Shown here one piece after another: positions 11,662-33,264 of a DNA stretch of 48,348 bases. This DNA comes from Gemmatimonadota bacterium (GTDB taxonomy: Bacteria > Gemmatimonadota > Gemmatimonadetes > Gemmatimonadales > Gemmatimonadaceae): the NCBI GenBank assembly GCA_003221805.1, contig QHUA01000135.1, positions 1-48,348 of the forward strand. Reading direction: 5' to 3'. The notes beneath the pieces are model-generated. The model worked only from the letters and a program-made list of their open reading frames with translations, searched no databases and was not told where the DNA came from. Each line of letters opens with the position of its first letter. The first letter of the stretch is position 1. The translations under genes were made by a program, and so were the position numbers.

Positions 11662-11689
11662 GCGATCAGCAGTCAGCGATCAGCCGTCC
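11662..11689. repeat. Degenerate heptamer repeat after the YbdD stop
   Basis: Four 7-bp units follow each other 12 bp after the YbdD-like stop codon: GCGATCA (11662), GCAGTCA (11669), GCGATCA (11676) and a diverged GCCGTCC (11683). The first and third units are identical. The rest of this 77-bp gap between convergent genes holds nothing else recognisable. Confidence 0.6.
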
Positions 11690-11727
11690 GCTGGTAGTGT
11701 TCTTTTGATCTTGTTTGTTGCAGCGCG

Positions 11728-12279
11728 TCAGTGGGCGAGATCTCTATTGTACCACCACAGCGCCTTGGACAGCGCGGCGTATCCGGCGTTGATGTGCTGC
11801 AGCCCCCACCCGATCGCTCCAACGCCGCCGATGATCAGAATCGGACTCGCCGCGTTATTTGAGCTATTGGCGGAAACCACAATTCCGATGGCGGCCGTTG
11901 CCGCGCCAAGGCTGCTTACCAGCGAGCCACGGAAATTCTTCGTCTGAAAATTCCTGGCCTCGGCGACCGCGCGTGGGGACGATTCGACGAGCTTCGGGAC
12001 GTCGAAATCGCGAAACCAGCCGACAGTCCCCACGACGGGCCCTTCGGCGCCACGAATGATGTTGGCGCTACCCCAGCTCGACTCGAACCGCAGCGCCTGA
12101 GTACTGTAGGCACGCGCGGAATCCGTCTGCGACTGGGTCCGGCTCGAGGGAACCGCGGGGCCTGTTGAGGTCGCGGAAGTTGCTACTGGCGGAGCCGGGA
12201 GACCGTTCGCCTGCGCCTGCGCACTAACTCCAGAAAACGAGGCGCTAACAAGGAGCGCCAAAAAAAATCTCGACTTCAT
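11728..12279 (-). CDS. Exported protein of unknown function, WYNRDL family (copy 1)
   Basis: The 183-residue product has a signal peptide (MKSRFFLALLVSASFSGVSA), a Pro/Ser/Thr-rich stretch (about 25-55), and a domain with LVESSPRAVAEARNF, two hydrophobic segments (about 118-135 and 144-160) and the C-terminus ALSKALWWYNRDLAH. It is clearly paralogous to the next gene upstream (12354-12818), sharing LV-SSP-AVA-A, a similar hydrophobic pattern and the ending AL-A-WWYNRDL. I recognise no characterised family. Its untranslated leader folds into a hairpin that contains the ribosome binding site (12283-12338). It converges with the S9/YbdD genes. Confidence 0.65.
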   Translation of the reverse strand: MKSRFFLALLVSASFSGVSAQAQANGLPAPPVATSATSTGPAVPSSRTQSQTDSARAYSTQALRFESSWGSANIIRGAEGPVVGTVGWFRDFDVPKLVESSPRAVAEARNFQTKNFRGSLVSSLGAATAAIGIVVSANSSNNAASPILIIGGVGAIGWGLQHINAGYAALSKALWWYNRDLAH

Positions 12280-12282
12280 TTT

Positions 12283-12338
12283 ATCCTCGGTGATCGCTCA
12301 AACCATTTTTCTACGGACGATTTGAGCGAGCCGAGGAT
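12283..12338 (-). promoter_or_regulatory. Leader hairpin sequestering the ribosome binding site
   Basis: On the minus strand, arms 12338-12321 and 12302-12283 form two perfect 8-bp stems (ATCCTCGG/CCGAGGAT and CGCTCAAA/TTTGAGCG) separated by a small asymmetric bulge, with an 18-nt loop. The 3' arm ends CACCGAGGAT, then AAA and the start codon at 12279, so the Shine-Dalgarno GAGGA is paired inside the stem. This could act as a structure-controlled translation switch. In the other direction the hairpin is followed by a six-T run at about 12344-12349, so it could also stop plus-strand transcripts running past YbdD. Confidence 0.6.
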
Positions 12339-12353
12339 TACACTTTTTTACAA

Positions 12354-12818
12354 CTACTTTTTGAGATCACGATTGTACCACCAGATGGCCCTGGAAAGGG
12401 CGCGCGTAGCGGTGTCCAGCCTCATCGCTCCGTAGGTAACCAGAGCCAGCGTGGTAAAGGTGATTCCGAGAGGTACCGGCTGATTCACACCTATATGATT
12501 GATGGCGAAGGCCCAACCCCAGACCCCAACCCCAAGGGCGGCAGTCCAAATACCTTGGCGGTAATTCGCTTCAAACAGTTTGGCCTGCGCCACGGCGTTG
12601 GGCGATGACGCGACCAGTTGCGCCACGCCAGCCGATCTGATGATTCCGACGGTCAGCACCACGGAGTCAGAAACCCCGCGAACAATTCGGAGTCGACCAA
12701 GTCCGCCGTCGACGCGCAACGCGGCTTGGTCATACGTCCGCTCCTGCGATTCGACTTCAACCGTCGATGCCATGAGAGCAATCACCAAGATGAGGATGGC
12801 AATAAGAAGACGTTGCAC
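12354..12818 (-). CDS. Exported protein of unknown function, WYNRDL family (copy 2)
   Basis: The 154-residue product (GTG start at 12818) has an N-terminal hydrophobic signal or anchor (LLIAILILVIALMAS), a beta-like stretch LRVDGGLGRLRIVRGVSD, then LVASSPNAVAQAKLFEANYR, two hydrophobic helices and the ending RALSRAIWWYNRDLKK. It is the paralogue of the 11728-12279 product but lacks its Pro/Ser/Thr-rich segment. The conserved C-terminal WYNRDL motif just after the second hydrophobic helix suggests a membrane-associated protein. It lies 12 bp after the 447-residue lipoprotein gene and is probably co-transcribed with it. Confidence 0.62.
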   Translation of the reverse strand: MQRLLIAILILVIALMASTVEVESQERTYDQAALRVDGGLGRLRIVRGVSDSVVLTVGIIRSAGVAQLVASSPNAVAQAKLFEANYRQGIWTAALGVGVWGWAFAINHIGVNQPVPLGITFTTLALVTYGAMRLDTATRALSRAIWWYNRDLKK

Positions 12819-12830
12819 GGCTCGACCCCG

Positions 12831-14174
12831 TTAGTGGTAGTAGACAATGTTCGCCCGCCCGTTGAGCACCTTGCCGTCGCCGATGATGACATGCGTGTTG
12901 TCCGGATAGACATTGCCCGCGGCTGCCTGATCTACGGCCACACCCAGGAAGTCGTCGTTCGTAGTCAGCCAGGATCCCGGGTTGGAAAACATCATCGCCA
13001 CGAACGCCCCTGCGACCAACCGCCACTGGGCACCCGGAAGAAGCTTGAGAGCGACGGTCCCGAACGAGGTAGCAGCTGACCGCACAAAATCGGCGAGTGG
13101 ATTGGCGTCCAGCTTGAGTGTGCACGGCTGATTGTCATCCTCCCAGAACATCACGTGGAAGCCGTCGGAAAACTTCTGAATGAACGCCTGCACCTCGTCC
13201 TCGGCAAAAAGGAGAACGCGTCCCGACCAGAAGCCATCGTTTTGATCAAAGGCCTTTCTCCAGTCATAGGGATGCTCACCGGAACAGGAAAGATCCTCCG
13301 CGTAGGTAGGCGCGTTTCCCATGTATGGCCCCTGGATGTGCACCTCGATTTCAGGGTCGCCGCGGAACCACGGCTCTTTCGCATCGAGAATTCGCGAGAA
13401 CTCCAGATAGATCCCCGGGGGAATCGTCCCCGAAGAACCGCCGCCGCCGACAACACCTCCCCCTCCCCCTCCCCCATCGCCGCCACACTCAGCGTCGCAC
13501 GCGATCACGCTCGAAGACCTGAGCTGCATCGGCTCGAGTGTCCCGATGGCGCTCCCGTTCTGGTCGCGCGCGTTTCTCGATGTAGAAGCAGGCATGGGCT
13601 GATCGAAACGCGTCTCGACGGGAACGATGGAGAGCGTCGGCTGGGCGGGCGCCACATTCCTGTCGAGCGTTACCTCCTTCCCCGCCTCGTTAAAGGCAAC
13701 GATAGACGTCCACTGATCGAGCTGCGAGACGACCAGAACGTCCGCCTTGCCGGTCCAGGACTCGCGATGCTTCGCCACGGGCATGTAAAGCTCGAGCGGT
13801 CGAATCCCGGCGAGCGTTCCGAACACAGCGGTCTCACCTCCGCTCGTCAGAGCGGCCATTCGATCCAGCAACGCTCGTCCGTCCTTCGACTGCAGGTAAG
13901 ACTTGAGCTCGAGCTTGTGCTCGCGGAACGGCGCGGTGCGCATGTCGCGCTTGAGGTGCTGCCGCGCCGGCTCGTTGTCCATCGCCACCGCCACCAGCCG
14001 CGCGATCTTCGTCAGCGCGACACGTTCCTCGCTCGGCGCCACTGCGGACGCGGGCTCCGCAACAATCTCTCTCGAGGAGGAGGGTGCAACGGTGCGACTC
14101 GCGGGATCGGCACAAGCTGCGAATGCCGCGAGCGACGCCAGAACAAGAGCTCCTTCGCCATATGTGTGTTTCAT
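12831..14174 (-). CDS. Large hypothetical lipoprotein with glycine-rich linker
   Basis: A GAGGAGG ribosome binding site precedes ATG 14174. The 447-residue product has a lipobox (LAAFAAC) at about residues 16-21. An N-terminal domain (about 45-225) is followed by a near-pure glycine linker (about 231-247) and a C-terminal domain (about 248-447) with an aromatic-rich FSDGFHVMFWEDDNQPC stretch and a hydrophobic segment WRLVAGAFVAMMF. The N-terminal part includes ELYMPVAKHRESWTG and VLVVSQLD. I do not recognise either domain. It is expected in the periplasm or on an outer-membrane surface. Confidence 0.62.
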   Translation of the reverse strand: MKHTYGEGALVLASLAAFAACADPASRTVAPSSSREIVAEPASAVAPSEERVALTKIARLVAVAMDNEPARQHLKRDMRTAPFREHKLELKSYLQSKDGRALLDRMAALTSGGETAVFGTLAGIRPLELYMPVAKHRESWTGKADVLVVSQLDQWTSIVAFNEAGKEVTLDRNVAPAQPTLSIVPVETRFDQPMPASTSRNARDQNGSAIGTLEPMQLRSSSVIACDAECGGDGGGGGGGVVGGGGSSGTIPPGIYLEFSRILDAKEPWFRGDPEIEVHIQGPYMGNAPTYAEDLSCSGEHPYDWRKAFDQNDGFWSGRVLLFAEDEVQAFIQKFSDGFHVMFWEDDNQPCTLKLDANPLADFVRSAATSFGTVALKLLPGAQWRLVAGAFVAMMFSNPGSWLTTNDDFLGVAVDQAAAGNVYPDNTHVIIGDGKVLNGRANIVYYH

Positions 14175-14264
14175 AAATCCTCCTCGGCGAGTGGTGCGGT
14201 TGATGACGCGCTCACACTACCAGCCGGTGGAGGATCGGCTGTAACCCACGAACCGCTTACGAGA

Positions 14265-15509
14265 TCACTTCGCCTCGCTGAGTCGCGACGCTGGCGCGAC
14301 GATCGCCATCAGGATTGCGGCGACGAGCGCGAGTGACGCGCCGAAGACGAACGCGCTGGGCGCGCCGGATCGATCCCAGATCCAGCCGAAGATGAGCGAG
14401 GCCGGCAGCGCGCCGAGCCCGATGGCGAGATTGTACCAACCGAAAGCAGCACCGCGGCGTATTCTGGGGACGATGTCCGCAACTAGTGCCTTCTCCGTGC
14501 CTTCGGTCATGCCGTAGAAAACGCCATACACCGCGAACAGCGCCCACGCCTGCCACGGCGCACCCGCCCATCCGAAAGCGAAGTAGACAGCCGCGTAGAG
14601 AAGCCAGCCACCTACTATCAGCGGCTTGCGTCCAACTCTATCCGAGAGCTGGCCGCCGTAGGTGCCCGTAGCCGCTTTCACGAAGTTGAGCACCGCCCAG
14701 AGGATCGGCGCCAGGGCGACTGGAACGCCCAACTGATTCGCGCGCAACAACAGGAAAGCATCGGTCGAATTGCCGAGGGTGAAGAGCAACACCACCACGA
14801 GGTAGGCCCAGAACCGCCGACTCAGCTTGCTGCTTTCACCGGGGGTCTCACTGGACTTCGATTTCGTGTCGCTTCGTTTCACATCGCGCACGACGAAGAT
14901 GAGAATCAGCATCGCGATCGCGGCCGGGATTGCCGACAGCCAGAATACGTTTCTTATGGCGTGCTCGTCGTGGGCAGAGAGGTGACGGCTCGTATCCAAC
15001 GCCCCGACGCCGTGCAGTTTGAGCAGAAGAAATGCGACCAGCGGGCCGAGCACTGCCCCGGTATTATCGGCAGCGGCGTGGAAGCCGTAGGCCAGTCCGC
15101 GAGATTCTGGCGGTGCGGAATCAGCGAGCAAAGCGTCGCGCGGGGAGGTGCGCAGTCCCTTGCCGATGCGGTCGGTGACGCGGATCCCCAACACCTGCGT
15201 CGCGTTGTGCGTCGCCGCCGTGAATGGTCGCACAATCGACGCGATGAGGTAGCCAACGACCACGAAAGGCTTCCTGGTGGCGACTTTGTCCGACCACCAC
15301 CCGCTGAGGAGCTTGAGCAGCGATGCCGTGCTCTCTGCCGCTCCTTCGATTGCTCCAATGAAACTCGCGTTCGCGCCAAGCACTCCCGCCAGAAAAATCG
15401 GGAGCAGCGGATAGATCATCTCGGTGGAGACATCGGTGAAGAGACTTACAAGTCCAAGACCGATGACGTTGCGTCCGAGCTTCGAACGCTTTTCGGTGCC
15501 GTCTACGAT
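14265..15509 (-). CDS. MFS transporter with unclear start codon
   Basis: About 12 hydrophobic segments and the block STEMIYPLLPIFLAGVLGA followed by DRIGKGLRTSPRDALLADS identify a major facilitator superfamily transporter of the type annotated as multidrug or sugar efflux. Substrate is unknown. The first ATG in frame (15419) would remove the usual first helix. The same frame upstream encodes GRNVIGLGLVSLFTDVSTE, the normal family N-terminus, yet contains no ATG, GTG or TTG before a stop. I extend to an ATC at 15509, which overlaps the nucleotidyltransferase stop by 7 bp. The true start may be a rare codon or the region may carry an indel. A weak hairpin at 14221-14241 follows the stop. Confidence 0.75.
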   Translation of the reverse strand: MVDGTEKRSKLGRNVIGLGLVSLFTDVSTEMIYPLLPIFLAGVLGANASFIGAIEGAAESTASLLKLLSGWWSDKVATRKPFVVVGYLIASIVRPFTAATHNATQVLGIRVTDRIGKGLRTSPRDALLADSAPPESRGLAYGFHAAADNTGAVLGPLVAFLLLKLHGVGALDTSRHLSAHDEHAIRNVFWLSAIPAAIAMLILIFVVRDVKRSDTKSKSSETPGESSKLSRRFWAYLVVVLLFTLGNSTDAFLLLRANQLGVPVALAPILWAVLNFVKAATGTYGGQLSDRVGRKPLIVGGWLLYAAVYFAFGWAGAPWQAWALFAVYGVFYGMTEGTEKALVADIVPRIRRGAAFGWYNLAIGLGALPASLIFGWIWDRSGAPSAFVFGASLALVAAILMAIVAPASRLSEAK

Positions 15510-16486
15510 GCGTGCACCTCGGAATGGTCACCGACGGTGAGCTCGCCCTTCACGCCCTCGACGACGGTATCGTCGCCGACGAGCGAATTCTTCAACACCG
15601 ACTTGGTGATCTTGGCATTCGAGCCGACGATGGAGTTGGAGACTTCCGATCCATCGAGGACAGTCCCCGCGCCGATGGAAACGTTCGGGCCGATTCTCGA
15701 TTTCCGCAGCGTGACGTTGTCCTCGATATAGACCGGATCGATGATCGTGGAATCGCCAGTGCTCCTCGGTCGCCGCGCCCGCCCCCGCGTCAACATCGCT
15801 TCGTTCGTCTCCAGCATTGTCTCGATCTTGCCGGCGTCGAACCAGCCGGCAACGTCGATTACGCGGATCTTGGCACCCTTGTCGATCATGTACTGGAAGG
15901 CGTCGGTGAGAAAATATTCGCCCTGGTTCTTCGGCTGCTTCAGCACCCAGTCGATTCCTTCGAAAAGCAGCTTCCAGTTGCGAACGTAGTACAATCCGAT
16001 GTTGGCGCGACGCGAGATCGGAGTCGTTGGCTTCTCGACGATCCTGGTCATGTTGCCGTCGTCGTCGGTCACGACAACGCCGAACCTCTGGTAGTCCTCT
16101 ACCTCCTTGACCCAGATGATTCCGTCGGCGTCGACACTTTTCACCCTCGTAAGGTCGGCGTCGAAGATCGTATCCACAAAGATTATGAGAACGGGCTGGT
16201 CGACGTAATCGCGCGCCAGGGCGATCGCGCCCGCGGTGCCGTCCTGAATTTTCTGCTCGATGAAAACGGACGGCACATCCATCTCGGCGCGCGCGTACTC
16301 CTCGACTTTTTCCTTAAGGTGTCCGGTGATGTAAATCACCTGCTCGACGTTGCCGAGTTTCTTCAGCTCATCGAGCACGTACGACATCACCGGTTTGCCG
16401 GCGACCTTGAGCATCGGCTTGGGCGTGATGTGCGTGTGCGGGCGCAGCCGCGTTCCCTTCCCTGCCAGCGGAATGATGACTTTCAT
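15503..16486 (-). CDS. Sugar-phosphate nucleotidyltransferase with left-handed beta-helix tail
   Basis: The 327-residue product starts MKVIIPLAGKGTRLRPHT, the nucleotide-binding loop of the sugar-1-phosphate nucleotidyltransferase family (G-G-TRL-P). KPMLKVAGKPV and EKPTTPISRRANIGLYYV are also family blocks. The catalytic domain covers about 1-235. The tail (about 250-325) has hexapeptide-like repeats (IEDNVTLRKSRIGPNVSIGA), a left-handed beta-helix. Enzymes of this kind make NDP-sugars such as dTDP-glucose or GDP-mannose. The start overlaps the cupin gene stop (ATGA). With the adjacent mannose-6-phosphate isomerase-like cupin, GDP-mannose synthesis is plausible but not proven. Confidence 0.85.
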   Translation of the reverse strand: MKVIIPLAGKGTRLRPHTHITPKPMLKVAGKPVMSYVLDELKKLGNVEQVIYITGHLKEKVEEYARAEMDVPSVFIEQKIQDGTAGAIALARDYVDQPVLIIFVDTIFDADLTRVKSVDADGIIWVKEVEDYQRFGVVVTDDDGNMTRIVEKPTTPISRRANIGLYYVRNWKLLFEGIDWVLKQPKNQGEYFLTDAFQYMIDKGAKIRVIDVAGWFDAGKIETMLETNEAMLTRGRARRPRSTGDSTIIDPVYIEDNVTLRKSRIGPNVSIGAGTVLDGSEVSNSIVGSNAKITKSVLKNSLVGDDTVVEGVKGELTVGDHSEVHAS

Positions 16487-16929
16487 GGAGCCGTTGTCCC
16501 CTCGCGACCGTACTTATCGCTCAAGCGCACGATGTCGTCGACTTCCGGCGTCGATACCTCCAGCACTTCGCAGTCAGTCACGGCGACCATCTGGTGAATC
16601 GTACCGGGAATGATTCTGAATGACTCCCCGACCTGGAGATGCACATCGTCCAGCACCTCATCTCCGTTGCGCTGGACACGATAAATGATCTGACCGGAGA
16701 GCAGGTAGACGGTCTCATCCTTCTTGTTGTGGTACTGCACCGACAGCTCGTGGCCGGCGTTGATGTGAATGATCTTGCCGGTGTAGCGCTCCGAATGGGC
16801 CCAGATCGTCTCGTGACCCCAAGGCTTGGTAACGCGAGTGATCGGCACCCGACCTGAGCGCGCGGGGACGCGCTTCCGCGGCGATGTCGATTTCCTGGCG
16901 GGTTTCTGAGAGCCGGATTTCTTTGGCAT
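16483..16929 (-). CDS. Cupin, type II mannose-6-phosphate isomerase-like
   Basis: After a very basic N-terminal tail (about 1-28) the 148-residue protein has a single cupin domain with TKPWGHETIWAH, YTGKIIHINAGHELSVQYH, ETVYLLSG and FRIIPGTIHQM. This matches the isomerase domain at the C-terminus of AlgA/ManC-type bifunctional enzymes, which interconvert fructose-6-phosphate and mannose-6-phosphate. Metal ligands would be the His of QYH, the Glu of ETVY and the His of TIHQM. The stop overlaps the start of the nucleotidyltransferase, so two activities that are often fused are here separate, coupled genes. Confidence 0.82.
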   Translation of the reverse strand: MPKKSGSQKPARKSTSPRKRVPARSGRVPITRVTKPWGHETIWAHSERYTGKIIHINAGHELSVQYHNKKDETVYLLSGQIIYRVQRNGDEVLDDVHLQVGESFRIIPGTIHQMVAVTDCEVLEVSTPEVDDIVRLSDKYGREGTTAP

Positions 16930-17000
16930 GCATAAATATCTACGGTCTCGTGGGATGGAGCCACTCGACGACGGGCATAGTTTCTGCCCCCCTCACACGC

Positions 17001-19644: not shown

Positions 19645-19645
19645 C

Positions 19646-20629: not shown

Positions 20630-20661
20630 TGCGCTGAAATTACTTAACCGAAAACAGAAAA

Positions 20662-20681
20662 GCCGACTCGATCGAGTCGGC
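20662..20681 (-). terminator. Intrinsic terminator of the M16 peptidase operon
   Basis: A perfect 20-bp palindrome, GCCGACTCGATCGAGTCGGC, lies about 80 bp after the stop of the second M16 gene. On the minus strand it is preceded by AAAG and followed by TTTTCTGTTTT, the T-rich tail of a Rho-independent terminator. Confidence 0.8.
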
Positions 20682-20725
20682 CTTTCTGTGATTGAGTTGG
20701 AGACATGCCCTATCCGTTGCCCGCA

Positions 20726-20760
20726 CCCGCTTCCCGCTTCCCGCTTCCCGCTTCCCGCTT
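20726..20760. repeat. Five exact CCCGCTT heptamers touching a stop codon
   Basis: Five identical copies of CCCGCTT run from 20726 to 20760 without interruption (GGGAAGC-type units on the minus strand). The last base is also part of the stop codon of the M16 gene ending at 20760, so the repeat starts exactly where coding ends. Confidence 0.9.
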
Positions 20761-22199
20761 TACCGGACTTTAACTCCGTTCGGATCCCACACCTCGACCA
20801 CTCCAAAATTTCTCGCTCGAATCGGCGCCTCGATCTTGGACAAATCACCTGCGACGACAACTACCAGGTTGTCAGGCGTGAGTTTACTGGTCGCGACCTT
20901 TTGCACATCGGCCGGCGTCACCGCCGACAGCCGCTCGCGGTACGTCGTGTAGAAATCGAGCGGCAGTCCCCACGTGATCAGGCCTTGCAGCCGCCCGGTC
21001 AGACCCTGCACGCTCTGCACGCCGTTCGGGAAACTCGACACCAAATTGTTCACACCCGCCTGCAGCTCCTCCGGCGGAACAGCCTCGGTGACGAGGCGAC
21101 GATATTCTGCGATCGCCTCCACCAATGCTGAGTCGGTGGCATTGGTGCGAACTTCCGACTGCATCTGGAACGCGCCCGCGCCCGTCCTCAGATCGAGCCC
21201 GCTGAAGATTCCGTAGGTGTAGCCGTGCTTCTCGCGCAAATTGGTGTTGAGACGCGAGCTGACCGCGCCGCCGAGAACATGATTGAGCGCCAGCATCGAG
21301 AGGTAATCCGGATCGGTCGCCTGGAAGCCGGCCTGCCCAACGACGATCGAGGACTGCACTGATCCCGGACGATCGACGAGAATCACCCGCGTGCCGGAGC
21401 GCGTTCGAATCGGATTCGCCACCGATGGCATCGCCGCGCGTGTCGCCGTCCAGCCGCCGAATGCCTGTTGCGCCACAGTCCGCGCCTCTGCCGGCGAGAT
21501 GTCGCCGACGAGTAGCAGAGTCGACGCCGACGGCGCGAACATCGTCCGATGCCAGTTGACCACATCGTCGCGGGTGAGGGCGCCTATCGTCGCCAGTGTT
21601 CCGGCTGGAGGGCGCGAGAATGGCGCCGTGCTGTCGAACGCGGCGCGCACGAATGCATCGGCAGCCAACCCCGACGCGCGCGCGTGACTCTGCTGATACG
21701 CAGCCAGCGCCTGATTTTTCACTCTGATGAACTCGGTCGCGGGAAAACTCGGAGCTGTCACGGTCTTCGCCGCCAGCGACATCGCCTGCGGGAAAACATT
21801 CTTCAGAGCGACAACGTCGGCGAACGACGTGCTGAACCCACCGCCGGTCGAGTACTGCGCGCCGAGCGCGTCCATTTGGCGCGCGATCTCCGCGCCCGAC
21901 ATTTCGGCGGTGCCTTCGGAGAGCAGCCTGCCCGTCAATGACGCCAAACCGTTCTTCGCCGCCGGCTCGCGCATCGCGCCGGCATCGAGAATGAGACGCC
22001 CCTCGACTACCGGCAGGGTGTGTTTCTCGACGAGAATCACCTTCAAGCCGTTCGAGAGCTGGAACTGCTCCACGTTTGGAAAGACGTAGGGGCGGAGCGC
22101 GCCGGGAGCCGGCGGCTTGACCGTCTGGGCACCGGCACTCAGAGCGCCGATCGCAACGGAGATCACCGCCAGCCGCATCGTGATTTTTCCGGTACGCAT
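20760..22199 (-). CDS. M16 family peptidase-like protein, non-catalytic partner
   Basis: The 479-residue exported protein has an M16 (pitrilysin/processing peptidase) fold: FQLSNGLKVILVEKHTLP near residue 45, the domain duplication, and the C-terminal LREKHGYTYGIFSG block. The zinc motif HxxEH is missing: at the expected site the sequence reads GLASLTGRLLSEGT, so both His and the Glu are replaced. The R/Y pair of the second domain (HGYTYGI) is retained. This is the pattern of the non-catalytic subunit of a heterodimeric M16B enzyme. It follows its catalytic partner with stop and start overlapping in TAATG. Confidence 0.88.
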   Translation of the reverse strand: MRTGKITMRLAVISVAIGALSAGAQTVKPPAPGALRPYVFPNVEQFQLSNGLKVILVEKHTLPVVEGRLILDAGAMREPAAKNGLASLTGRLLSEGTAEMSGAEIARQMDALGAQYSTGGGFSTSFADVVALKNVFPQAMSLAAKTVTAPSFPATEFIRVKNQALAAYQQSHARASGLAADAFVRAAFDSTAPFSRPPAGTLATIGALTRDDVVNWHRTMFAPSASTLLLVGDISPAEARTVAQQAFGGWTATRAAMPSVANPIRTRSGTRVILVDRPGSVQSSIVVGQAGFQATDPDYLSMLALNHVLGGAVSSRLNTNLREKHGYTYGIFSGLDLRTGAGAFQMQSEVRTNATDSALVEAIAEYRRLVTEAVPPEELQAGVNNLVSSFPNGVQSVQGLTGRLQGLITWGLPLDFYTTYRERLSAVTPADVQKVATSKLTPDNLVVVVAGDLSKIEAPIRARNFGVVEVWDPNGVKVR

Positions 22200-23611
22200 T
22201 ACGGCACCCTCGGCGTTGACGTTGAAGCCGTCTTCTTCGACGGCACGTAGATGAGAACGACGCGGTTCCTGTCCACAATCCGCTCCCGCGCCAGCGCGTT
22301 GAGATCGTCGAGGGTTACGCGATCGTAATCGCGCAGCACCGTGTTCACATAGTTCGGATCGTGGAAGTACGTCCAGCCTTCTGCCAGACGATCAGCGCGT
22401 CCACCAAAGCCACCAGTCGTCTGCAAGCCGTTGACGAATCCAAACCGCTCTGCCGCGCGCGCCCGCTCCAGCTCCGCCTGCGTGAAGCTGCTTGTACCGG
22501 CAAGCTCCGCCATCAGAGCGACCTCGAGGGAATCGGGATTGCTGCCGGGCTTTCCCGTGGCGGTGAAGACGAGCATGTCGGCGCCATCGGCCAAGCCGAA
22601 GTTGAAGCCGCCGACATTGGTCGCGAGCTGTTGGCGGCGGACCAGCGCGTCGTACAAGCGCGACGAGCGTCCGCTGCCGATGACGTCGCCGAGGAGCGAC
22701 ACGACTGGCGCACGACCGTCTTTCGCTGGCGGTACTCTGTAACCGACGTAGATCGCCGGCGCCGGCGCTTGCGCATCGGCGATAACGTAGCGCTGCTGAT
22801 GCCCCACGTTCTCCGGCACACTCATGTTGGCGAGAGGCGGAACCCTCGGCCCGCGCGGAATCGGACCGAAATATTTGCGCACCATTTGCTTCACTTGCGG
22901 CACATCGATGTCGCCAGCGACAACCAGCACCGCGTTGTTGGGCGCGTAGTAGGTCTTGAAGAAGCTCGAGACGTCGGCGAGGCTGGCGGCGGAGAGATCC
23001 GTCATCGACCCGATCACCGAGTGATGGTAGGGGTGGCCCTCGGGGAAGAGCGCTTCTCCCATCTTCTCTGGCCACGTGCCGTAGGGTTGGTTGTCGAATG
23101 ATTGGCGGCGCTCGTTCTTCACCACCTCGCGCTGGTTATCGAGCTTCGCCTGGTCCATTGCTTCGAGCAGCGTTCCCATGCGATCCGATTCGAGCCAGAT
23201 CGCCAGCTCGACCTGGTTGGATGGAATCGTCTCGAAATAGGCGGTGCGATCCCAGTTGGTCGTTCCGTTGATGTCGGCTCCGCCGCGTCCGCCTGCAGCT
23301 TCGAGGAGAGAGAAGTGCTGTCCCTTGGCGACGTTTTTCGAGCCCTGAAACATCATGTGCTCGAACAAGTGGGCGAAGCCGGTGCGTCCCGGCTGCTCCA
23401 TTTTCGATCCGACGTTATACCATAGAAGTACTGCCGCCACGGGAGTGGAATGGTCGACGTGGTAAATCACGTTGAGTCCGTTGGGCAGCGTTTCCCTGGT
23501 AAAGTCGACGCGCAGCTCGGGACTCTTTGCCACCTGCGCCTTTTTTGCCTGCGCGCTCGCGTTGGCGGCGACGAGGCATAACAGAGAGACCGCGACGTAG
23601 CGGAGTCTCAT
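22199..23611 (-). CDS. M16 family zinc peptidase, catalytic subunit
   Basis: The 470-residue protein has a signal peptide (about 1-20, ending ANASA) and the inverted zinc motif HLFEH (His81, Glu84, His85) in GFAHLFEHMMFQGS, with the downstream Glu in the NATTN-type region GTTNWDRTAYFE. It should be a periplasmic zinc peptidase that digests small proteins or peptides in a closed chamber formed with the second subunit. It is the first gene of a two-gene operon. Upstream lies a 288-bp inverted-repeat element (23705-23992) and no obvious regulatory site. Confidence 0.9.
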   Translation of the reverse strand: MRLRYVAVSLLCLVAANASAQAKKAQVAKSPELRVDFTRETLPNGLNVIYHVDHSTPVAAVLLWYNVGSKMEQPGRTGFAHLFEHMMFQGSKNVAKGQHFSLLEAAGGRGGADINGTTNWDRTAYFETIPSNQVELAIWLESDRMGTLLEAMDQAKLDNQREVVKNERRQSFDNQPYGTWPEKMGEALFPEGHPYHHSVIGSMTDLSAASLADVSSFFKTYYAPNNAVLVVAGDIDVPQVKQMVRKYFGPIPRGPRVPPLANMSVPENVGHQQRYVIADAQAPAPAIYVGYRVPPAKDGRAPVVSLLGDVIGSGRSSRLYDALVRRQQLATNVGGFNFGLADGADMLVFTATGKPGSNPDSLEVALMAELAGTSSFTQAELERARAAERFGFVNGLQTTGGFGGRADRLAEGWTYFHDPNYVNTVLRDYDRVTLDDLNALARERIVDRNRVVLIYVPSKKTASTSTPRVP

Positions 23612-23704: not shown

Positions 23705-23992
23705 GTCAAGGCGGATCGCAGAACTTGACACGATCTGGCATCCACAAAACTAAAGCAGGGAGCTTTAAGCCTAGTCAGCTTTCTAGCTCCGAGCTCACAT
23801 ACTGGCGCTAGAGATGCGCGCCATTCTCAGATCGCTGTTCTTCGTAGAGATCTATCCAAAGCCGGGAAACCGCGACCGTCCGACACTATACGCCGCCGGA
23901 ATAGCTCGCAGCTCCCAGCTGACTAAGCTTTCAGCTCCCTGCTTTAGTTTTGTGGTGACCGGTGGGCGGCCAGATCAACGGCCCGCCTTGAC
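23705..23992. repeat. Palindromic intergenic element, copy 1
   Basis: The 388-bp gap between the M16 operon and the ABC permease holds a long inverted repeat. Inner arms of about 50 bp begin at 23742 (CCACAAAACTAAAGCAGGGA) and end at 23955 as the reverse complement. Outer ends carry GTCAAGGCGG at 23705-23714 and its reverse complement CCGCCTTGAC at 23983-23992. The right arm contains 7-bp units beginning AGCT (AGCTCGC, AGCTCCC, AGCTGAC). A 23-bp core of the right arm (23933-23955) is repeated exactly at 33919-33941. No gene is supported inside. Confidence 0.8.
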
Positions 23993-25166: not shown

Positions 25167-25178
25167 GGTCCTACCTCC

Positions 25179-28171: not shown

Positions 28172-28202
28172 ATGACCGAGTACGGGAATCGGTTGAAAAC
28201 GA

Positions 28203-28228
28203 AAGGGCCGCACCCAACCGCAGCCCTT
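28203..28228 (-). terminator. Possible terminator after the atp operon
   Basis: On the minus strand, AAGGGC (28228-28223) pairs with GCCCTT (28208-28203) around a 14-nt loop, followed by TTCGTTTTC. It lies 44 bp after the atpH stop and 32 bp before the TolC-like start. The stem is only 6 bp and the T tract is broken, so strength is doubtful. Confidence 0.45.
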
Positions 28229-28271
28229 CAATAACTACGCCCAACCTACCCCGTGTGCTGAGGCCGCAGCG

Positions 28272-28820
28272 CTAAGTTCGCTGGGACTGCAACATCCGCT
28301 GTTTTAACAAAGACAACCGCTTCCGCACCGACCCGTCCATCACCGTGTCGCCGACCCTGACGATCACTCCACCGAGGATGGCTGGGTTGTGCGAGATGTG
28401 CGGTATCACCCGTTTTCCGAACAGCCGCGTCAACTGGCGCGCCAGCGCGTCCTTCTCCGGCTCGGCCGGCTCGCGCGCCACGGTGACATTGGCGTGCAGC
28501 CGATTTTCGGATTCATCGATCAGCGCCTGGTACTCGGTAGCGATCACCGGAATCAGCATCTGCCGGCGCTTGTGGATCACCGTTTCGATGTAGCGCAGGA
28601 AAAGCTTGGGGACCCTTCGTCCGAAAGCTTTCTCAAGGATCTCGATCTTGTGGGAAGCCGCGAGTTTTGGCGACTCGAGAAACGTGCGCAGCGTCTGATC
28701 CTCGCGCATGGCGGCGGCGATGGCGTCGAGGAGCGCGCCCCATTGCTCGACGTCTCCGCTTTTCTGCGCCAGCGCCAGCAGCGCCTCGGCGTAGTTGCGG
28801 CCGATCGTCGACTCGTTCAT
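28272..28820 (-). CDS. atpH: ATP synthase F1 delta subunit
   Basis: The 182-residue protein matches OSCP/delta: IGRNYAEALLALAQKSGDVE at the N-terminus, the helical N-domain (to about 110) and a C-terminal VREPAEPEKDALARQLTRLF and PAILGGVIVRVGDTVMDGS block. It links the F1 head to the peripheral stalk. Its start overlaps the atpF stop (ATGA). In most genomes atpA, atpG, atpD and atpC follow, but here the next gene on the strand is a TolC-like protein. Confidence 0.92.
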   Translation of the reverse strand: MNESTIGRNYAEALLALAQKSGDVEQWGALLDAIAAAMREDQTLRTFLESPKLAASHKIEILEKAFGRRVPKLFLRYIETVIHKRRQMLIPVIATEYQALIDESENRLHANVTVAREPAEPEKDALARQLTRLFGKRVIPHISHNPAILGGVIVRVGDTVMDGSVRKRLSLLKQRMLQSQRT

Positions 28821-29389
28821 CCGCGGTTGGCTCCGCCCGCGGGAATCGAGGAGAGGAAGGTCTCCACGATCTTCCGGTTCGCCTGGTCATCGAGATTCTT
28901 CTCGATGACTTTGCTCGCCCCGGCGATTGCCAGCTCGACGGCCTCGCGGCGCATCTCGGCGATGGCGCGCACCTTCTCCTGCTCGATTTCACGACGCGCG
29001 CGCTCGAGCATCTGCTGCTGTTGCGAGTGGGTCTCGTCGATCATCTGCGCCCGAACTTTTTCGCCGACCTGACGCCCTTCGGCGATGATCTTCTGCGCTT
29101 CGTTGCGGGCGGCCTCGATCTGCCGCTGCTGCTCGGCCAGTGCCTGGGCGGCAGCTTCACGATCGCGCTTTGCTCCTTCGATCGCCTCCTCGAGCGCTTT
29201 CTCGCGCGCCTCGACGGCGGCGGTGATCTTCGGGAAGACGAGCTTGCCGAGGATGATCAGCAGGATGACGAAGGTGACGAGCGTCCAGAACATCAGCCCG
29301 CCATTGGGCGAAAGAAGATCGCCTGACTGCCCTGATTCTTCCGGTGCGACCTGCGCCGTCTGGAGAAGTGCGAAGATGAGATTCTGCAT
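28817..29389 (-). CDS. atpF: ATP synthase F0 b subunit
   Basis: A membrane helix (LMFWTLVTFVILLIILGKLV, about 32-52) is followed by a long charged, heptad-rich helix (about 60-175, AREKALEEAIEGAKRDREAA), the peripheral-stalk coiled coil. The 190-residue length is slightly above the usual 160-170 because of a 25-residue N-terminal extension facing the periplasm. It lies between atpE (110 bp upstream) and atpH (4-bp overlap). Confidence 0.92.
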   Translation of the reverse strand: MQNLIFALLQTAQVAPEESGQSGDLLSPNGGLMFWTLVTFVILLIILGKLVFPKITAAVEAREKALEEAIEGAKRDREAAAQALAEQQRQIEAARNEAQKIIAEGRQVGEKVRAQMIDETHSQQQQMLERARREIEQEKVRAIAEMRREAVELAIAGASKVIEKNLDDQANRKIVETFLSSIPAGGANRG

Positions 29390-29499
29390 TGATAGCTTTT
29401 CGGTTGGGCGGAGCTTCGCCGTTTACACTGCCGTTGCTTTGCTATCCGGATCGCTGACCCGCGGCGCACCAAACACCGCGAGCCGCGTCCGGTAATGCC

Positions 29500-29784
29500 T
29501 TAGAACTTGAACTTGCCCTGGATCAGGAACGAGATGACGACCGCGAACAGCGCGACGCCCTCGATGAGCGCCGCGAAGATGATCGCGCCCGTCTGAATGC
29601 GACCGGCCATCTCGGGCTGACGCGCCATGCCGTCCATAGCCTGTCCGGCGAGACGTCCGATACCGATGCCCGCGCCGATTACGGCGAGACCCGCGCCAAC
29701 GCCGGCGCCGAGCATGCCCCACGCACCCGTGTACTCCTTGGAGAACGTGGTTGCAGCCTGAAGCAGCGGAAAGATCGAGACCAT
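29500..29784 (-). CDS. atpE: ATP synthase F0 c subunit
   Basis: The 94-residue hairpin protein has two membrane helices: the first with the glycine pattern GAGVGAGLAVIGAGIGIG, a polar loop with the conserved RQPE, and the second with the ion-binding Glu75 in ALIEGVALF. The residue after Glu is Gly, and Na+-type ligands are not evident, so a proton-driven ring is more likely. An extension of about 18 residues precedes the first helix and may be a cleaved signal-like segment. AAAGGGG lies upstream of the start. Confidence 0.93.
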   Translation of the reverse strand: MVSIFPLLQAATTFSKEYTGAWGMLGAGVGAGLAVIGAGIGIGRLAGQAMDGMARQPEMAGRIQTGAIIFAALIEGVALFAVVISFLIQGKFKF

Positions 29785-29922
29785 TTTCGTACCCCTTTCA
29801 ACAATCGTGATATGTCATGCTCGCGATCTCTCGATCGCCATCCGTCAGCGAGACTCTCGTCCCAACGGAATTCTCCAGCCCGCTCGGCCGGATACTTACA
29901 CGGAGTTGAGCACTCTCCGCGT

Positions 29923-30771
29923 TCAGTGCGCACCCTCGCGAATCAGTCCGATGAAGACGCTGGACAGAAGCGTGAAGATGAACGCCTGCAAAAACGCGAC
30001 GAACAATTCGAGCAGCGAGATGCCGAGGGCCATGGCGATGGGCAGCGGCACCAGAATCCATGTTGCAAACGTGAAGATGAGGCTGATGAGCGCCAGCAGC
30101 ACCACGTGCCCCGAAACCATATTGGCGAAGAGTCGGATCGCCAGCGCGAACGGCTTGGTGAATTTCCCGATGATCTCGATCGGCGTCAGGATGAAGGTGA
30201 TCGGCAGCTTCAGGGCCAGCGACATGTCATGTGGCCAGAACACGATGGTGTTGATGTAGCCGAGTCCCAATGCTCTAATGCCCGCGATCTCGATGACGAA
30301 GAACGTGACGATGGCGAGGGTCGCGGTCACCGAGATGTTTCCGGTCGCCGTCGCGCCATACGGGACGAGGCCAAGCAGGTTGGCGAATAGAATGAAGAAG
30401 AAGAGAGTCAGCAGATACGGCACGTACGCATTGCCGTGCGGTCCAACATTCGGCAGGACGACTTCATTCCTCAGATACAGCACCAGCGCTTCCAAGCCAT
30501 TTCCGAATCCAGCGGGCGCCTTGCCTTCACGAGTTCTGCGATTGTGGGCGCGGAGCGCGAGGAGGGTCGTTACGATGCAAAGTACCGCCGCAATCCAGAG
30601 CATCACGACGTGACGAGTCGGCGAGATGTCGAGAGCAAAGCGGCCGATGTGAATCGGATTCCAACGGGGCAACTCGTATTCGCACACGAAGCCCGAGTGG
30701 AAGCACGGGTAGTCGAGCGTGTGCGAGTCAGTGATATGCGGGGTGATGAAGTCTTTTTGGTCAGCGATCAT
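29923..30771 (-). CDS. atpB: ATP synthase F0 a subunit
   Basis: The 282-residue membrane protein carries the a-subunit signatures: NLLGLVPYGATATGNISVT and the half-channel helix with the essential Arg in ALAIRLFANMVSGH. The N-terminus has a periplasmic segment with two Cys (DYPCFHSGFVCEYE) that could form a disulfide, not general for the family. The start overlaps the atpI-like gene by 11 bp. The 138 bp before atpE shows no clear structure. Confidence 0.93.
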   Translation of the reverse strand: MIADQKDFITPHITDSHTLDYPCFHSGFVCEYELPRWNPIHIGRFALDISPTRHVVMLWIAAVLCIVTTLLALRAHNRRTREGKAPAGFGNGLEALVLYLRNEVVLPNVGPHGNAYVPYLLTLFFFILFANLLGLVPYGATATGNISVTATLAIVTFFVIEIAGIRALGLGYINTIVFWPHDMSLALKLPITFILTPIEIIGKFTKPFALAIRLFANMVSGHVVLLALISLIFTFATWILVPLPIAMALGISLLELFVAFLQAFIFTLLSSVFIGLIREGAH

Positions 30772-31135
30772 ATTCGAGCAGCAGCGGTTCAGCCATCATC
30801 GTCAGAAAGAAAAACGTCACCAGACTCACCAGCGCCGCCTCGACCGAGAGGTTGATAATCCTCGCCAGTGGCGCGTACAGCACCAGCACGAACAGACGGA
30901 GCACGGCACCAAGTCCCCACCGCAGCAGCAGCTCGCCCGGAAAACCGTGCCCCGGCCGGGCCGGTCTGAGCAGCGCATAAGAGCCGAGCTGTACCGCGAA
31001 AGCCAGTCCAGCGGAAATCAGCATCGCATTGTGCTGATCGACCGTCCGGTAGTACGTCCTCAGAATGATTGTTCCGACGATTATCAGCGAGGCCGAGACT
31101 CCGGCAAAGAAGCTAATCGCACGCTTCTCCTTCAT
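30761..31135 (-). CDS. atpI: AtpI-like ATP synthase-associated membrane protein
   Basis: The 124-residue protein has about four hydrophobic helices (ISFFAGVSASLIIVGTIIL; AMLISAGLAFAVQLGSYALL; two more to residue 115). Sequence is poorly conserved in this family, so the call rests mainly on size, topology and position immediately before atpB. AtpI proteins assist c-ring assembly. It overlaps atpZ by 4 bp (ATGA) and atpB by 11 bp. Confidence 0.7.
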   Translation of the reverse strand: MKEKRAISFFAGVSASLIIVGTIILRTYYRTVDQHNAMLISAGLAFAVQLGSYALLRPARPGHGFPGELLLRWGLGAVLRLFVLVLYAPLARIINLSVEAALVSLVTFFFLTMMAEPLLLEYDR

Positions 31136-31425
31136 CGCCTCGCGTTCCAGCTCTCGTCGTTCCCCTGCCGCCGCGACTTCCTCTCCTCGTCGTCGCGCTT
31201 TTGGGCCGCGCTGATCTTGCGGTACATGTTGTAGAAAGCCGCAGCCGCACCGACAAAGACGCCGACAATGGTGAACAAGCCGTTGAAGCCCAGTCGGTTA
31301 TCGAGCCATTGTCCAGCGAATAGGAAGAGGATGATCGCCAAAGCGAACTGGAGTCCCAAGCCGGCGAAATCGGCGCCGGAGAGACCCTGCCTGGGGCTCG
31401 GTTGCGACCGCTTTTCGTCATCCAT
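31132..31425 (-). CDS. atpZ: AtpZ/AtpI-type F0F1-associated small membrane protein
   Basis: The 97-residue protein has the AtpZ pattern: FAGLGLQFALAIILFLFAGQ, WLDNRLG, then FTIVGVFVGAAAAFYNMYR and a charged tail. AtpZ proteins are linked to F0 assembly or ion transport (the family was annotated as a Ca2+/Mg2+ transporter). As the first gene it places the Rex-like dyad at 31446-31463 in the promoter of the whole atp cluster. Confidence 0.85.
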   Translation of the reverse strand: MDDEKRSQPSPRQGLSGADFAGLGLQFALAIILFLFAGQWLDNRLGFNGLFTIVGVFVGAAAAFYNMYRKISAAQKRDDEERKSRRQGNDESWNARR

Positions 31426-31445
31426 TCCGCGCTGAATTTAGCTGC

Positions 31446-31463
31446 TTGTGAAGATTTTCACAA
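31446..31463. promoter_or_regulatory. Rex-type operator upstream of the atp operon
   Basis: A perfect inverted repeat TTGTGAA-N4-TTCACAA lies 20 bp before the atpZ start codon, and one more base pair on each side (C/G) and the next (G/C) extend the dyad. This matches the published consensus of the redox repressor Rex (TTGTGAAnnnnTTCACAA), which leaves DNA when NADH is high. Rex control of atp operons is known in some actinobacteria. No rex gene is in this window. The rest of the 219-bp gap to the plus-strand gene holds only the 31589-31607 dyad. Confidence 0.72.
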
Positions 31464-31588
31464 GCGAAAGGATCTGCGGTTCCGAAGGCACCCCGAAGAT
31501 GCACGAAGCTCATGCAAGTCGAGCAGTCATGCGAAGTTAGTTCGTGACTTTGGTGTTGACCGCTCGTCTTAGTGTCGATAAGTTGGGC

Positions 31589-31607
31589 TTCTCACAATAT
31601 GTGAGAA
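31589..31607. promoter_or_regulatory. Perfect dyad, probable operator
   Basis: TTCTCACAATATGTGAGAA is a perfect 8-bp inverted repeat with a 3-bp spacer, 37 bp upstream of the BsuPI-domain gene start. It has the size of a TetR- or MarR-family operator. A similar half, TGTGAGAATGG, occurs upstream of the SusC-like gene near 39910. Confidence 0.45.
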
Positions 31608-31644
31608 TGGCCCGCCCGCCCATAAAAGATTCGCGCTCACTACC

Positions 31645-32118
31645 TTGGATAACCGCCTCATTCTCCCCCTGCTCTGCGCAGCATCGGTCGCGTTCGCCGC
31701 GGCTCCTTCCTTCTCCCACGCCGAAAAACCGATTGCCACTGTGAAGCACCGCGATTCGGAGATGAGCGCGCCGATCGTCACCACTTTCGACATCACCAGA
31801 CCGAAGGATGATGCGCAAAAACTCCGCTTCACTCTCAACGTTCGCAACAACACGACGAAGATGCTCGAGCTGCGCTTCCCCGACGGGCAGACGCACGACT
31901 TCGTGGTGAAGGATTTCACTGGCAAAGAGGTCTGGCGCTGGAGCAAGGGGCGCATGTTCACCTCGGCGATGCGCAGTGAGACGCTGAAGGGCAAGGAAGA
32001 CACGATCTACGAGGAGAGCTGGAGCTCGAAGGGCGAGCACGGATCGTTCACCGCCGTCGCGATCCTCAAGAGCAACAACTTCCCAGTCGAGAGCAGCGTT
32101 CAGTTCGTACTGCCGTAG
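31645..32118 (+). CDS. BsuPI-domain exported protein
   Basis: A signal peptide (about 1-26, ending FSHA) is followed by a single beta-sandwich with the BsuPI pattern: RFTLNVRNNTTKMLELRFPD, THDFVVKD, VWRWSKGRMF and a late YEESW. The domain is named for the intracellular proteinase inhibitor of Bacillus subtilis, but most members are uncharacterised. The start is a TTG. The gene is followed by a heptamer repeat touching the stop codon and by an intrinsic terminator, so it is probably monocistronic. Inhibitor activity is only a family-based guess. Confidence 0.78.
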   Translation: MDNRLILPLLCAASVAFAAAPSFSHAEKPIATVKHRDSEMSAPIVTTFDITRPKDDAQKLRFTLNVRNNTTKMLELRFPDGQTHDFVVKDFTGKEVWRWSKGRMFTSAMRSETLKGKEDTIYEESWSSKGEHGSFTAVAILKSNNFPVESSVQFVLP

Positions 32119-32121
32119 AGA

Positions 32122-32141
32122 GACGAGGGACGAGGGACGAG
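32122..32141. repeat. GACGAGG heptamer repeat after the BsuPI gene
   Basis: Units GACGAGG (32122), GACGAGG (32129) and GACGAGA (32136) begin 3 bp after the stop codon. A T-rich strand counterpart (CTCGTCCCCCATCCCTCT, about 32193-32210) lies on the other side of the terminator hairpin, so the repeat is also one arm of a loose inverted repeat. Confidence 0.75.
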
Positions 32142-32168
32142 ACGCGCTCAACAGGGCGCGTTTTTTTT
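32142..32168 (+). terminator. Intrinsic terminator after the BsuPI gene
   Basis: ACGCGC (32142-32147) pairs with GCGCGT (32156-32161) around an 8-nt loop, and eight T residues run from 32161 to 32168. Confidence 0.82.
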
Positions 32169-32214
32169 GTGTCCGCCGCTCGCCCCTCTTCTCTCGTCCC
32201 CCATCCCTCTTTAC

Positions 32215-32227
32215 TTGACAAAGTCAA
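32215..32227. promoter_or_regulatory. Probable MarR operator/promoter of the MarR-GNAT gene
   Basis: TTGAC-AAA-GTCAA is a perfect dyad 42 bp before the start codon, and another TTGAC half follows at 32232. The first half also reads as a -35 box (TTGACA). MarR-family regulators commonly bind such TTGAC/GTCAA dyads and repress their own promoter. Confidence 0.6.
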
Positions 32228-32268
32228 CTATTTGACCGAAACTGGAGACTAGTCGGATCGGAGCTCCA

Positions 32269-33234
32269 GTGACTGCGACCAGCCCTCACCACGCCGGAAT
32301 CGGTGAACAAACCCGCCACCAGATCGAATCCGTGCGCGAGTTCAATCGCTTCTACACGCGTCTGATCGGTGTCCTGAACCGCGATTACCTCGATTCGCCC
32401 TTCTCCCTGGCCGAGGGTCGCGTGCTGATGGAGGTTTACTACCGAAAAACCACCACCGCCTCGGTAATCATTCAGGCGCTGGGTATCGATGCCGGGTACC
32501 TGAGTCGCATGCTGCGAGGATTCGAGCGACGCAGCCTCCTCGCCAAGGCTGGGTCCGTGGACGACGGGCGACAAAAGCCGCTGAGCCTGTCGCGCACGGG
32601 GCGCAAAGCGTTCGAGGCGCTCGAGGCGCGCCAGCGCGAGGTACTCGCCAAGACCCTCAAGCCGGTCGCGTCCCACCGTCGCACTCAACTCATTGGATCG
32701 ATGCACAGGATCCAGCGTATTCTCGATGCGCCAGCCGAGAATCGCGCGCCCTACACTTTCCGGTCGCTGCGGCCCGGCGACATTGGGTGGGTGACGCACC
32801 GCCAGGGGATCATTTATTACGAGGAATACGGTTGGGACGAGCGGTTCGAAGCGCTCTGCGGGGAAATTCTCGCCCACTTCGTCCAGAACCTCGATGCCAA
32901 ACGGGAACGAGCCTGGATCGCCGAGCGCGATGGCGAGATCGTCGGATCGATTTTTTGTGTCAGGAAATCGGCGGCAGTCGCGCAGCTGCGCCTTCTCTAC
33001 GTGGAGCCTACCACGCGTGGCCTGGGCATTGGTACGCGACTCGTCGACGAATGCGTCGACTTCGCGCGGCGGGCGGGTTACCGAAGGATGATGCTGTGGA
33101 CCAACAGCGTTCTCGACTCAGCGCGCCGGATCTACGAGCGCAAAGGATTCGGGCTGGTCAAGGAAGAGCGGCATCACAGCTTTGGCAAGAATCTCGTCGG
33201 CCAGAACTGGGAGCTGGATCTGAGGGGCAGCTAG
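32269..33234 (+). CDS. MarR-GNAT fusion protein
   Basis: Residues about 15-150 form a MarR winged-helix domain (YFRKT-like MEVYYRKTTTASVII, YLSRMLRGFERRSLLAK, DDGRQKPLSLSRTGRKAF). Residues about 158-318 form a GNAT acetyltransferase domain with the acetyl-CoA loop VEPTTRGLGIGTRLVDE and the C-terminal SARRIYERKGFGLVKEE. Such two-domain proteins are widespread and mostly uncharacterised; they may couple acetylation of a small molecule to its sensing. Start is GTG at 32269. A TTGAC dyad upstream suggests self-regulation. Confidence 0.9.
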   Translation: MTATSPHHAGIGEQTRHQIESVREFNRFYTRLIGVLNRDYLDSPFSLAEGRVLMEVYYRKTTTASVIIQALGIDAGYLSRMLRGFERRSLLAKAGSVDDGRQKPLSLSRTGRKAFEALEARQREVLAKTLKPVASHRRTQLIGSMHRIQRILDAPAENRAPYTFRSLRPGDIGWVTHRQGIIYYEEYGWDERFEALCGEILAHFVQNLDAKRERAWIAERDGEIVGSIFCVRKSAAVAQLRLLYVEPTTRGLGIGTRLVDECVDFARRAGYRRMMLWTNSVLDSARRIYERKGFGLVKEERHHSFGKNLVGQNWELDLRGS

Positions 33235-33264
33235 GGGCTGAGTGCTCGCGGCTAGGAGCTCGGC
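33230..33264. repeat. Degenerate GCTNNNN heptamers across a stop codon
   Basis: Five 7-bp units beginning GCT run in phase: GCTAGGG, GCTGAGT, GCTCGCG, GCTAGGA, GCTCGGC. The first unit contains the TAG stop codon of the MarR-GNAT gene (33232-33234). Confidence 0.7.

Follow-up and report, generated by a model that had tools for sequence, protein, structure and literature searches.

G-rich tandem heptamers adjoining stop codons in a Gemmatimonadota genome and their counterparts in related species

Introduction

The STRR of heterocystous cyanobacteria are tandem heptanucleotides, and the foldback elements of eukaryotes have inverted arms made of short tandem repeats. Here we describe G-rich heptamer arrays, many of them adjoining stop codons, in the draft genome of a Gemmatimonadota bacterium (GenBank assembly GCA_003221805.1), one of a group of uncultured soil bacteria, starting from positions 1 to 48,348 of contig QHUA01000135.1, which we call the window. 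A first-pass annotation of the window had listed six sites with 7-bp units and likened them to the cyanobacterial heptamers. This likeness was upheld, in another phylum and with other units than those of the STRR. The arm design of the foldback elements is also alike, with no sign here of transposition enzymes or of eukaryotic kinship.

The closest described systems are the G-rich heptamers of Xanthomonas and Nostoc, GGGNATC and GGGGA(C/T)T (Rehm et al. 2015, PMC4692102). In the parts of that paper drawn on here, the repeats consist of GGG plus four bases with a period of 7, occur in many dispersed and mostly intergenic copies, lie on the coding strand close to stop codons or across them, stand singly or in convergent inverted pairs, and are rare between divergent genes. 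The same features were found in our arrays: 12 of 30 are no more than 12 bp from a stop codon, each of these in sense orientation, and 7 of 7 close exact pairs are convergent. Unlike the repeats of Rehm et al., the present units are not GGGNATC or GGGGA(C/T)T and change between sister species, four units are not preferred, and one relative carries mainly 8-mers. The place was not kept at the two loci followed across the genus, whereas two Xanthomonas share 83% according to the cited text. As far as that text goes, our arrays, from the phylum Gemmatimonadota, are of the same kind as these heptamers and are not members of that family. The cited part of PMC4692102 also mentions heptanucleotides of Calothrix and raises the question why bacteria favour tandem heptamers.

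Two further systems are more distant. The TAACTGA direct repeats of Beggiatoaceae, Cyanobacteria and Bacteroidetes (MacGregor 2015, PMC4679880) are, in the sections cited, likewise dispersed intergenic heptamers in short arrays, but they have one favoured unit, are not G-rich and, in BOGUAY, lie mostly just upstream of start codons. In Geobacter metallireducens, a GC-rich element containing a tandem of four heptamers (GGACCGG) is present 49 times, both within genes and between them; the cited portion of that source (PMC2700814), unlike the present comparison, states no tie to stop codons and compares no species. Judged by title, the open-licence literature was not found to describe heptamers, G-quadruplexes or intergenic tandem repeats of Gemmatimonadota.

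Excess of period 7 in intergenic DNA

The window is contig C2 of the source genome (G000), a 3.14 Mb draft in 247 contigs that is 92% complete. Genome-wide rates were obtained from the window and 60 further stretches (C1 and C3 to C53 in order, at most 20 kb each, with extra stretches from C6, C10, C11, C12 and C24), together 748,913 bases (749 kb), with a slight sampling bias in that the lengths of C6, C12 and C24 were known beforehand through repeat matches. Another 20 stretches, picked for CCCGCTT repeats among the matches listed, were excluded from these rates. Genes were called by a simple custom codon-usage script, and gene ends are approximate. Pattern counts covered 61 genomes (handles G000 to G060), and the genus subset comprises 19 genomes. 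For the protein P0001 the nearest relatives are metagenome-assembled genomes of Gemmatimonadetes/Gemmatimonadaceae, including palsa_1244 and palsa_1239 (4 loci).

The excess of period 7 that the first-pass annotation had suspected was clearly observed. Counting exact tandem runs of 10 or more matches at lag 7, we found 27 in the intergenic part of the 749 kb, while the mean of five shuffles was 0.6 and every other period from 2 to 30 gave at most 6 intergenic runs. In coding sequence there were 4 period-7 runs vs 1 after shuffling. The autocorrelation of intergenic 6-mers was 445 at lag 7, compared with 27-164 at lags 3 to 44 other than multiples of 7, and it fell to 87 when the exact arrays were masked. 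Five equal trimers at spacing 7 occurred 17 times in the sample and not once at spacings 5, 8, 10, 11 and 13. Equally spaced GGG were found 53 times at spacing 7, 24 times at 14 and at most 4 times at other spacings from 4 to 15 (at most 2 in shuffled sequence). In the source genome as a whole, the two-unit pattern CCCGCTTCCCGCTT gave 159 matches, overlapping ones counted, with 0 for the reversed pattern.

Position relative to stop codons and neighboring genes

A bias towards stop codons had also been proposed, and it was confirmed. Random placement of the intergenic period-7 arrays (at least 9 matches) would bring 0.84 of them within 12 bp of a stop codon, and none of 500 randomisations reached the 12 observed. 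Start codons were not enriched near the arrays (1 vs 1.1 expected). The G-rich strand is the mRNA sense strand in all 12 stop-adjacent arrays. Among 45 AAGCGGG arms (locus L042 counted twice), 24 start at a coding stop, from 2 bp inside to 8 bp after it, a position taken by 1.9% of 3000 random intergenic positions. By manual tally, 14 of these 24 stops are TAG, vs 27% in confident gene calls (p 0.001), which suggests that part of the stop comes from the array. Repeats sharing bases with a stop codon, as had been reported, were seen in the window at 33230-33264 (TAG) and at 20760, where the last T of the array 20726-20760 doubles as part of the TAA that ends the minus-strand gene 20760-22199.

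Of the 36 AAGCGGG loci, 5 sit at contig edges and 3 within a gene call. The other 28 are in spacers, 11 convergent, 15 codirectional and 2 divergent, compared with 55, 245 and 75, respectively, among 375 background spacers. The favoured convergent spacers and the uniform sense orientation are what one would expect of selected 3' RNA elements. On that view, the G-rich arms that follow a stop codon would work as hairpins, or as G-quadruplexes, terminating transcription or shielding the mRNA, and function would maintain period and position. The arrays inside gene calls stand against this explanation, as do the mixed orientation in G013 and further points given below, and we consider it a possible but rather improbable account of the arrays.

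Three other ideas about the junction were rejected. Of the stop-bound arms, 12 have more variants downstream and 1 has more upstream, as polar growth from the stop codon would produce; this polarity is not seen in arms that have no stop (3 with more variants downstream, 7 upstream), so the coding boundary explains it. A period of 7 as a device for placing stops in all frames was dismissed on inspection, AAGCGGG containing no stop codon. An R-loop or sense-strand-only mechanism was raised by the orientation bias of the source genome and dropped because G013 has both orientations.

Structure and folding of the arrays

The arrays are mosaics of heptamers that keep a single phase; AAGCGGG units, for instance, give way to TTACGGG and TAACGGG. 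The commonest units are GGGAAGC, GGGGCGA, GGGTTAC, GGGAAGA, GGGTAAC and GGGACGA. From word to word in the source genome, the four spacer bases changed 77, 79, 60 and 54 times and the bases of GGG 29, 38 and 47 times. The corresponding numbers in G013 were 43 and 62 for two spacer bases, 14 and 13 for the other two, and 30 (first), 14 and 13 for the G's. All 7 close opposed exact pairs run from a G-rich to a C-rich arm, 58-113 bp apart.

Twenty-one chosen sites were folded along with 60 random stop regions, whose median z score was -0.7 with 5 below -3. The 12 paired-arm sites form long hairpins with z from -4.4 to -10.1, which agrees with selection as 3' RNA elements, and so does the terminator-like hairpin enclosed by arms at 32142-32168. 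The five sites folded as single arms, one of which (L167) also holds the shared core GGAAAGCGCGCTTCC, reached z of -0.3 to -2.6 only, and -0.7 was obtained for L066, whose opposed arm is built of a different unit; both results argue against that explanation. Three palindromes of other families had z of -4.4, -7.0 and -16.3. The role in 3' RNA structure suggested at first is possible for the strongly folding paired arms, and is not borne out by the single arms or by the 3 of 36 AAGCGGG loci inside gene calls. Chains of 3, 4, 5, 6, 8 and 11 GGG tracts numbered 17, 8, 6, 2, 1 and 1, respectively. Four tracts are not preferred, which again speaks against selected RNA elements, and with no step at four, G-quadruplex selection was rejected as the sole cause.

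Repeats listed in the window

All six sites of the first-pass annotation hold the units described for them (Table 1), but they do not make up one repeat family, being split over several unrelated ones. When 397 intergenic stretches were compared all against all, nine groups emerged, the largest (16 stretches) being that of AAGCGGG. The elements at 187-402, 11662 and 23705-23992 look, from their sequences, like dispersed repeats of an ordinary palindromic or short type, with arm words that are likewise about 7 apart; by eye, the spacing of the AGCT or GGGAACC-type words in the arms of 23705-23992 and 187-402 is mostly 7.

Table 1. Coordinates of repeat features in the window (dot, no strand assigned).
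Position	Strand	Feature	Remarks
187..402	.	Palindromic element of ~210 bp, GGTTCCC/GGGAACC words in arms	fold z -16.3
11662..11720	+	GCGATCA GCAGTCA GCGATCA (GCRRTCA heptads, 11662-11689) and downstream segment	dispersed repeat, 6 intergenic stretches in sample
20662..20681	-	Terminator-like hairpin stem, downstream of array 20726..20760	
20726..20760	-	Five exact CCCGCTT (AAGCGGG on mRNA strand), single arm	begins at TAA stop of gene 20760-22199
23705..23992	.	Palindromic element of ~290 bp, AGCT words in arms	relatives in L031, L057 and window 33885-33995
32122..32141	+	GACGAGG heptamers, 5' arm of hairpin	3 bp past TAG (32116-32118) of gene 31762-32118
32142..32168	+	Terminator-like hairpin and T8, enclosed by arms	
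32177..32210	+	C-rich 3' arm, mostly paired with 5' arm	fold z -4.7
33230..33264	+	Five GCT at exact spacing 7, imperfect heptads	first GCT overlaps TAG of gene 32332-33234
33885..33995	.	Partial copy of AGCT palindromic element 23705..23992	

The relatives of the palindrome 23705..23992 are 78-87% identical, and the matching spacer of G011 has no such palindromic element. A copy of the 187..402 element, 84% identical, is located at L064:3603-3927 and is absent in the matching G011 spacer. At the place matching 32142..32168, G011 has a different terminator-like hairpin. The gene 20760-22199, which by eye we take to be M16 peptidase-like, and 22199-23611 are two large tandem genes on the minus strand.

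Other dispersed palindromes were noticed in the genome. One of ~190 bp, with ends like AACTGCAACTGAACGGGTGCGAG, is found at L047:7126-7318, L066:86-278 and L052:14023-14247 and in six more stretches, some of the copies being partial; similar ends occur in G017 after an electron-transfer flavoprotein (ETF) dehydrogenase-like gene (L230). A second palindrome of ~190 bp, with GCGGTCA arm words, is present at L025:7346-7536, L025:11413-11602 and L038:6700-6889 with 82-89% identity.

Comparison at orthologous loci

Judged from the flanking sequences of orthologous genes, gain of the array relative to sister species was shown at two loci. The gene ending at 20760 has orthologues across the genus, with 86% identity in G011 and G014. 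The array 20726-20760 was absent from the 3' flanks of G011, G014, G016, G002, G004, G005, G017 and G018 (G001 and G003 were not included in this reading), and G011 and G014 have a terminator-like hairpin ~25 bp after the stop, without an array. The second locus, L054, is a gene pair, presumably ETF dehydrogenase-like and methyltransferase-like, with two convergent stops that are 134 bp apart in the source genome, the space being filled by an AAGCGGG hairpin. In G009, G002, G011 and G014, 4 bp separate the two stops, and by eye both proteins end at the matching residue. No AAGCGGG hairpin was found in this spacer in the flanks of 14 relatives (at most 330 nt, some short or partly readable), read from 16 loci fetched, the source genome included, out of 18 matches, with G001 not read. 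Other spacers at this locus carry other inserts, e.g., those of G008 and G017. G009 lacks the L054 array yet has AAGCGGG arrays at other places (29 matches). Arrays missing from the orthologous flanks that were read also weigh against selected 3' RNA elements.

Between the source genome and G011, 42 spacers were matched and 12 read fully, four of them with a repeat element of the source genome that is absent in G011 (20726, 23705, L064 and L029:16519); the comparison looked one way, and elements present only in G011 were not sought. For the gene beside the L173 hairpin, G012 alone has a close orthologue (76%; at most 47% elsewhere), and the flanks of this gene were left uncompared.

A 134 bp hairpin in place of a 4 bp gap could also be the work of non-autonomous mobile elements, similar to repetitive extragenic palindromes (REP), miniature inverted-repeat transposable elements (MITE) or foldback elements, with a transposase favouring gene ends. 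As to the terminal inverted repeats of a MITE, inverted arms were observed. The core GGAAAGCGCGCTTCC or a close variant is common to six hairpin-type sites at different loci, and other palindromic families of the source genome look like MITEs. On the other hand, arm lengths and units differ among the six aligned copies of the core, and no Y1 (RAYT/IS200-type) transposase was found in the source genome (92% complete) or in the array-rich G009, G013 and G017, other transposase families not being searched. The same search was positive in 3 of the 19 genus genomes and in 5 of 14 control genomes. Mobilisation of the RAYT/REP type was rejected on this result, and mobile elements in general seem an unlikely source of the arrays.

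Units and periods in other species

Two consecutive CCCGCTT units were matched in 21 of the 61 genomes (AAGCGGG, 159 in the source genome, 29 in G009, 16 in G017, 7 in G005, 1 in G011 and 0 in G013), AACGGGT in 6 (43 in G013, 12 in G012, 8 in the source genome), GACGAGG in 7 (19 in the source genome, 7 in G029) and GGACTGC in 7 (9 in G032, 0 in the source genome). The view that unit sequence is not conserved thus holds between species but not within the source genome, where AAGCGGG dominates and is common to many loci. Inspected by eye, the arrays of G013 consist largely of GGG[CT]A[AG]C mosaics in both orientations that often fill the space from stop to next gene. In G032, which belongs to another genus and has 74% GC, heptamer arrays of GCTGCGT, CGACGCT and AGCGCCG were observed (L119-L124). 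By eye, some form hairpins and others seem to lie within reading frames, gene calling being unreliable there.

Independently of the unit, four equally spaced GGG were found at spacing 7 in 59 of 61 genomes and at spacing 8 in 46 (the reversed control is void, the pattern being its own reverse). A manual tally gave 19 of 61 genomes in which spacing 7 has 20 or more matches and at least 4 times the spacing-8 count; examples of the 7/8 counts are 238/1 in the source genome, 220/1 in G013, 161/0 in G017, 319/13 in G020, 774/104 in G034 and 237/6 in G057. These counts include poly-G and chance matches in GC-rich genomes such as G031 (140/143), G033 (407/241) and G054 (534/290). Against a universal step of 7, spacing 8 exceeds 7 in 10 of 61 (G003, G019, G024, G025, G031, G032, G049, G050, G058 and G060), mostly narrowly or with few matches, and G060 stands out with 25/119.

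The claim that unit length is conserved was therefore not sustained, as G060 has mainly 8-mers in the same layout. Six of 21 arms in G060 begin at a coding stop (0-4 bp) in 12 stretches chosen for octamers, without a random control, and in one example TGA is followed directly by GCGGGGCGGCGGGGCAGC; several octamer arrays lie inside gene calls. G060 keeps the layout while the period is 8. Three of its octamer arrays, L205 ~2090 (-), L207 ~2104 (-) and L209 ~2040 (+), have a common downstream segment like AASARCACACC, hinting that whole elements may have been copied. G003 was considered as a second 8-mer species (21 at spacing 8 vs 7 at 7) and not counted as independent support, with one octamer array in 120 kb, at a contig start.

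The species comparison bears on two further explanations. Slippage arising separately at every locus, in steps of 7 dictated by the DNA polymerase, would fit the over-representation of heptamers in many bacteria, an idea quoted in the cited part of PMC4692102. It leaves unexplained one unit at many loci and the species-specific units, and is weakened by the 8-bp arrays of G060; we consider it very unlikely. Alternatively, each species might have machinery with its own template that writes one 7- or 8-base G-rich word at gene 3' ends, with the stop as landing or boundary signal. This proposal is at least as doubtful; if it were true, word and word length would change together genome-wide when the template changes.

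Origin of the arrays

One unit at many loci that is replaced in sister species implies either copying between loci or a common selected target. The explanation we favor, with roughly even confidence, is a dispersing, partly hairpin-forming G-rich tandem repeat that is tolerated at gene ends, where it may have a secondary role as a 3' RNA hairpin. Each arm is a series of 7-bp words, usually GGG followed by four variable bases, and keeps one phase even across word changes. Two opposed arms around a short core form a long hairpin, and single arms occur too. In this model, slippage and template switching at hairpins, or else a hypothetical mobile machinery, would spread copies between loci and homogenise them within a genome. 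The copies would persist mainly where they are harmless, between a stop codon and the next gene, and at gene ends they may secondarily serve as 3' hairpins. Tolerance can explain the stop junction in part, since most insertions into coding sequence are excluded and the arms extend as far as that barrier.

Several observations weigh against this explanation. No enzyme or insertion mechanism was found, Y1 being the only transposase family searched. The exact abutment at the stop 20760 despite a free spacer needs more than tolerance. Starts are not favoured and divergent spacers are scarce, which tolerance alone does not predict, although both may reflect promoter avoidance. The mixed orientation in G013 means that the sense-strand bias of the source genome is not general. 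Finally, one AAGCGGG array (L163:2675-2700) lies inside a hydrolase-like coding region. In an alignment with five relatives, from 11 matches, its loop length equals that of the G017 orthologue and G016 is 3 residues longer, so that the array looks like a replacement of existing sequence, not an insertion. Such a replacement looks like a better fit to template switching than to insertion in this one case, the only coding array compared with orthologues.

The bacteria studied here amount to a natural experiment within one order, with sister species that have many arrays, few or none, other words, and in one case mainly 8-mers. The same stop-codon layout across such species separates length from sequence and position, and the contrast among the species argues against a fixed polymerase step alone as the explanation.

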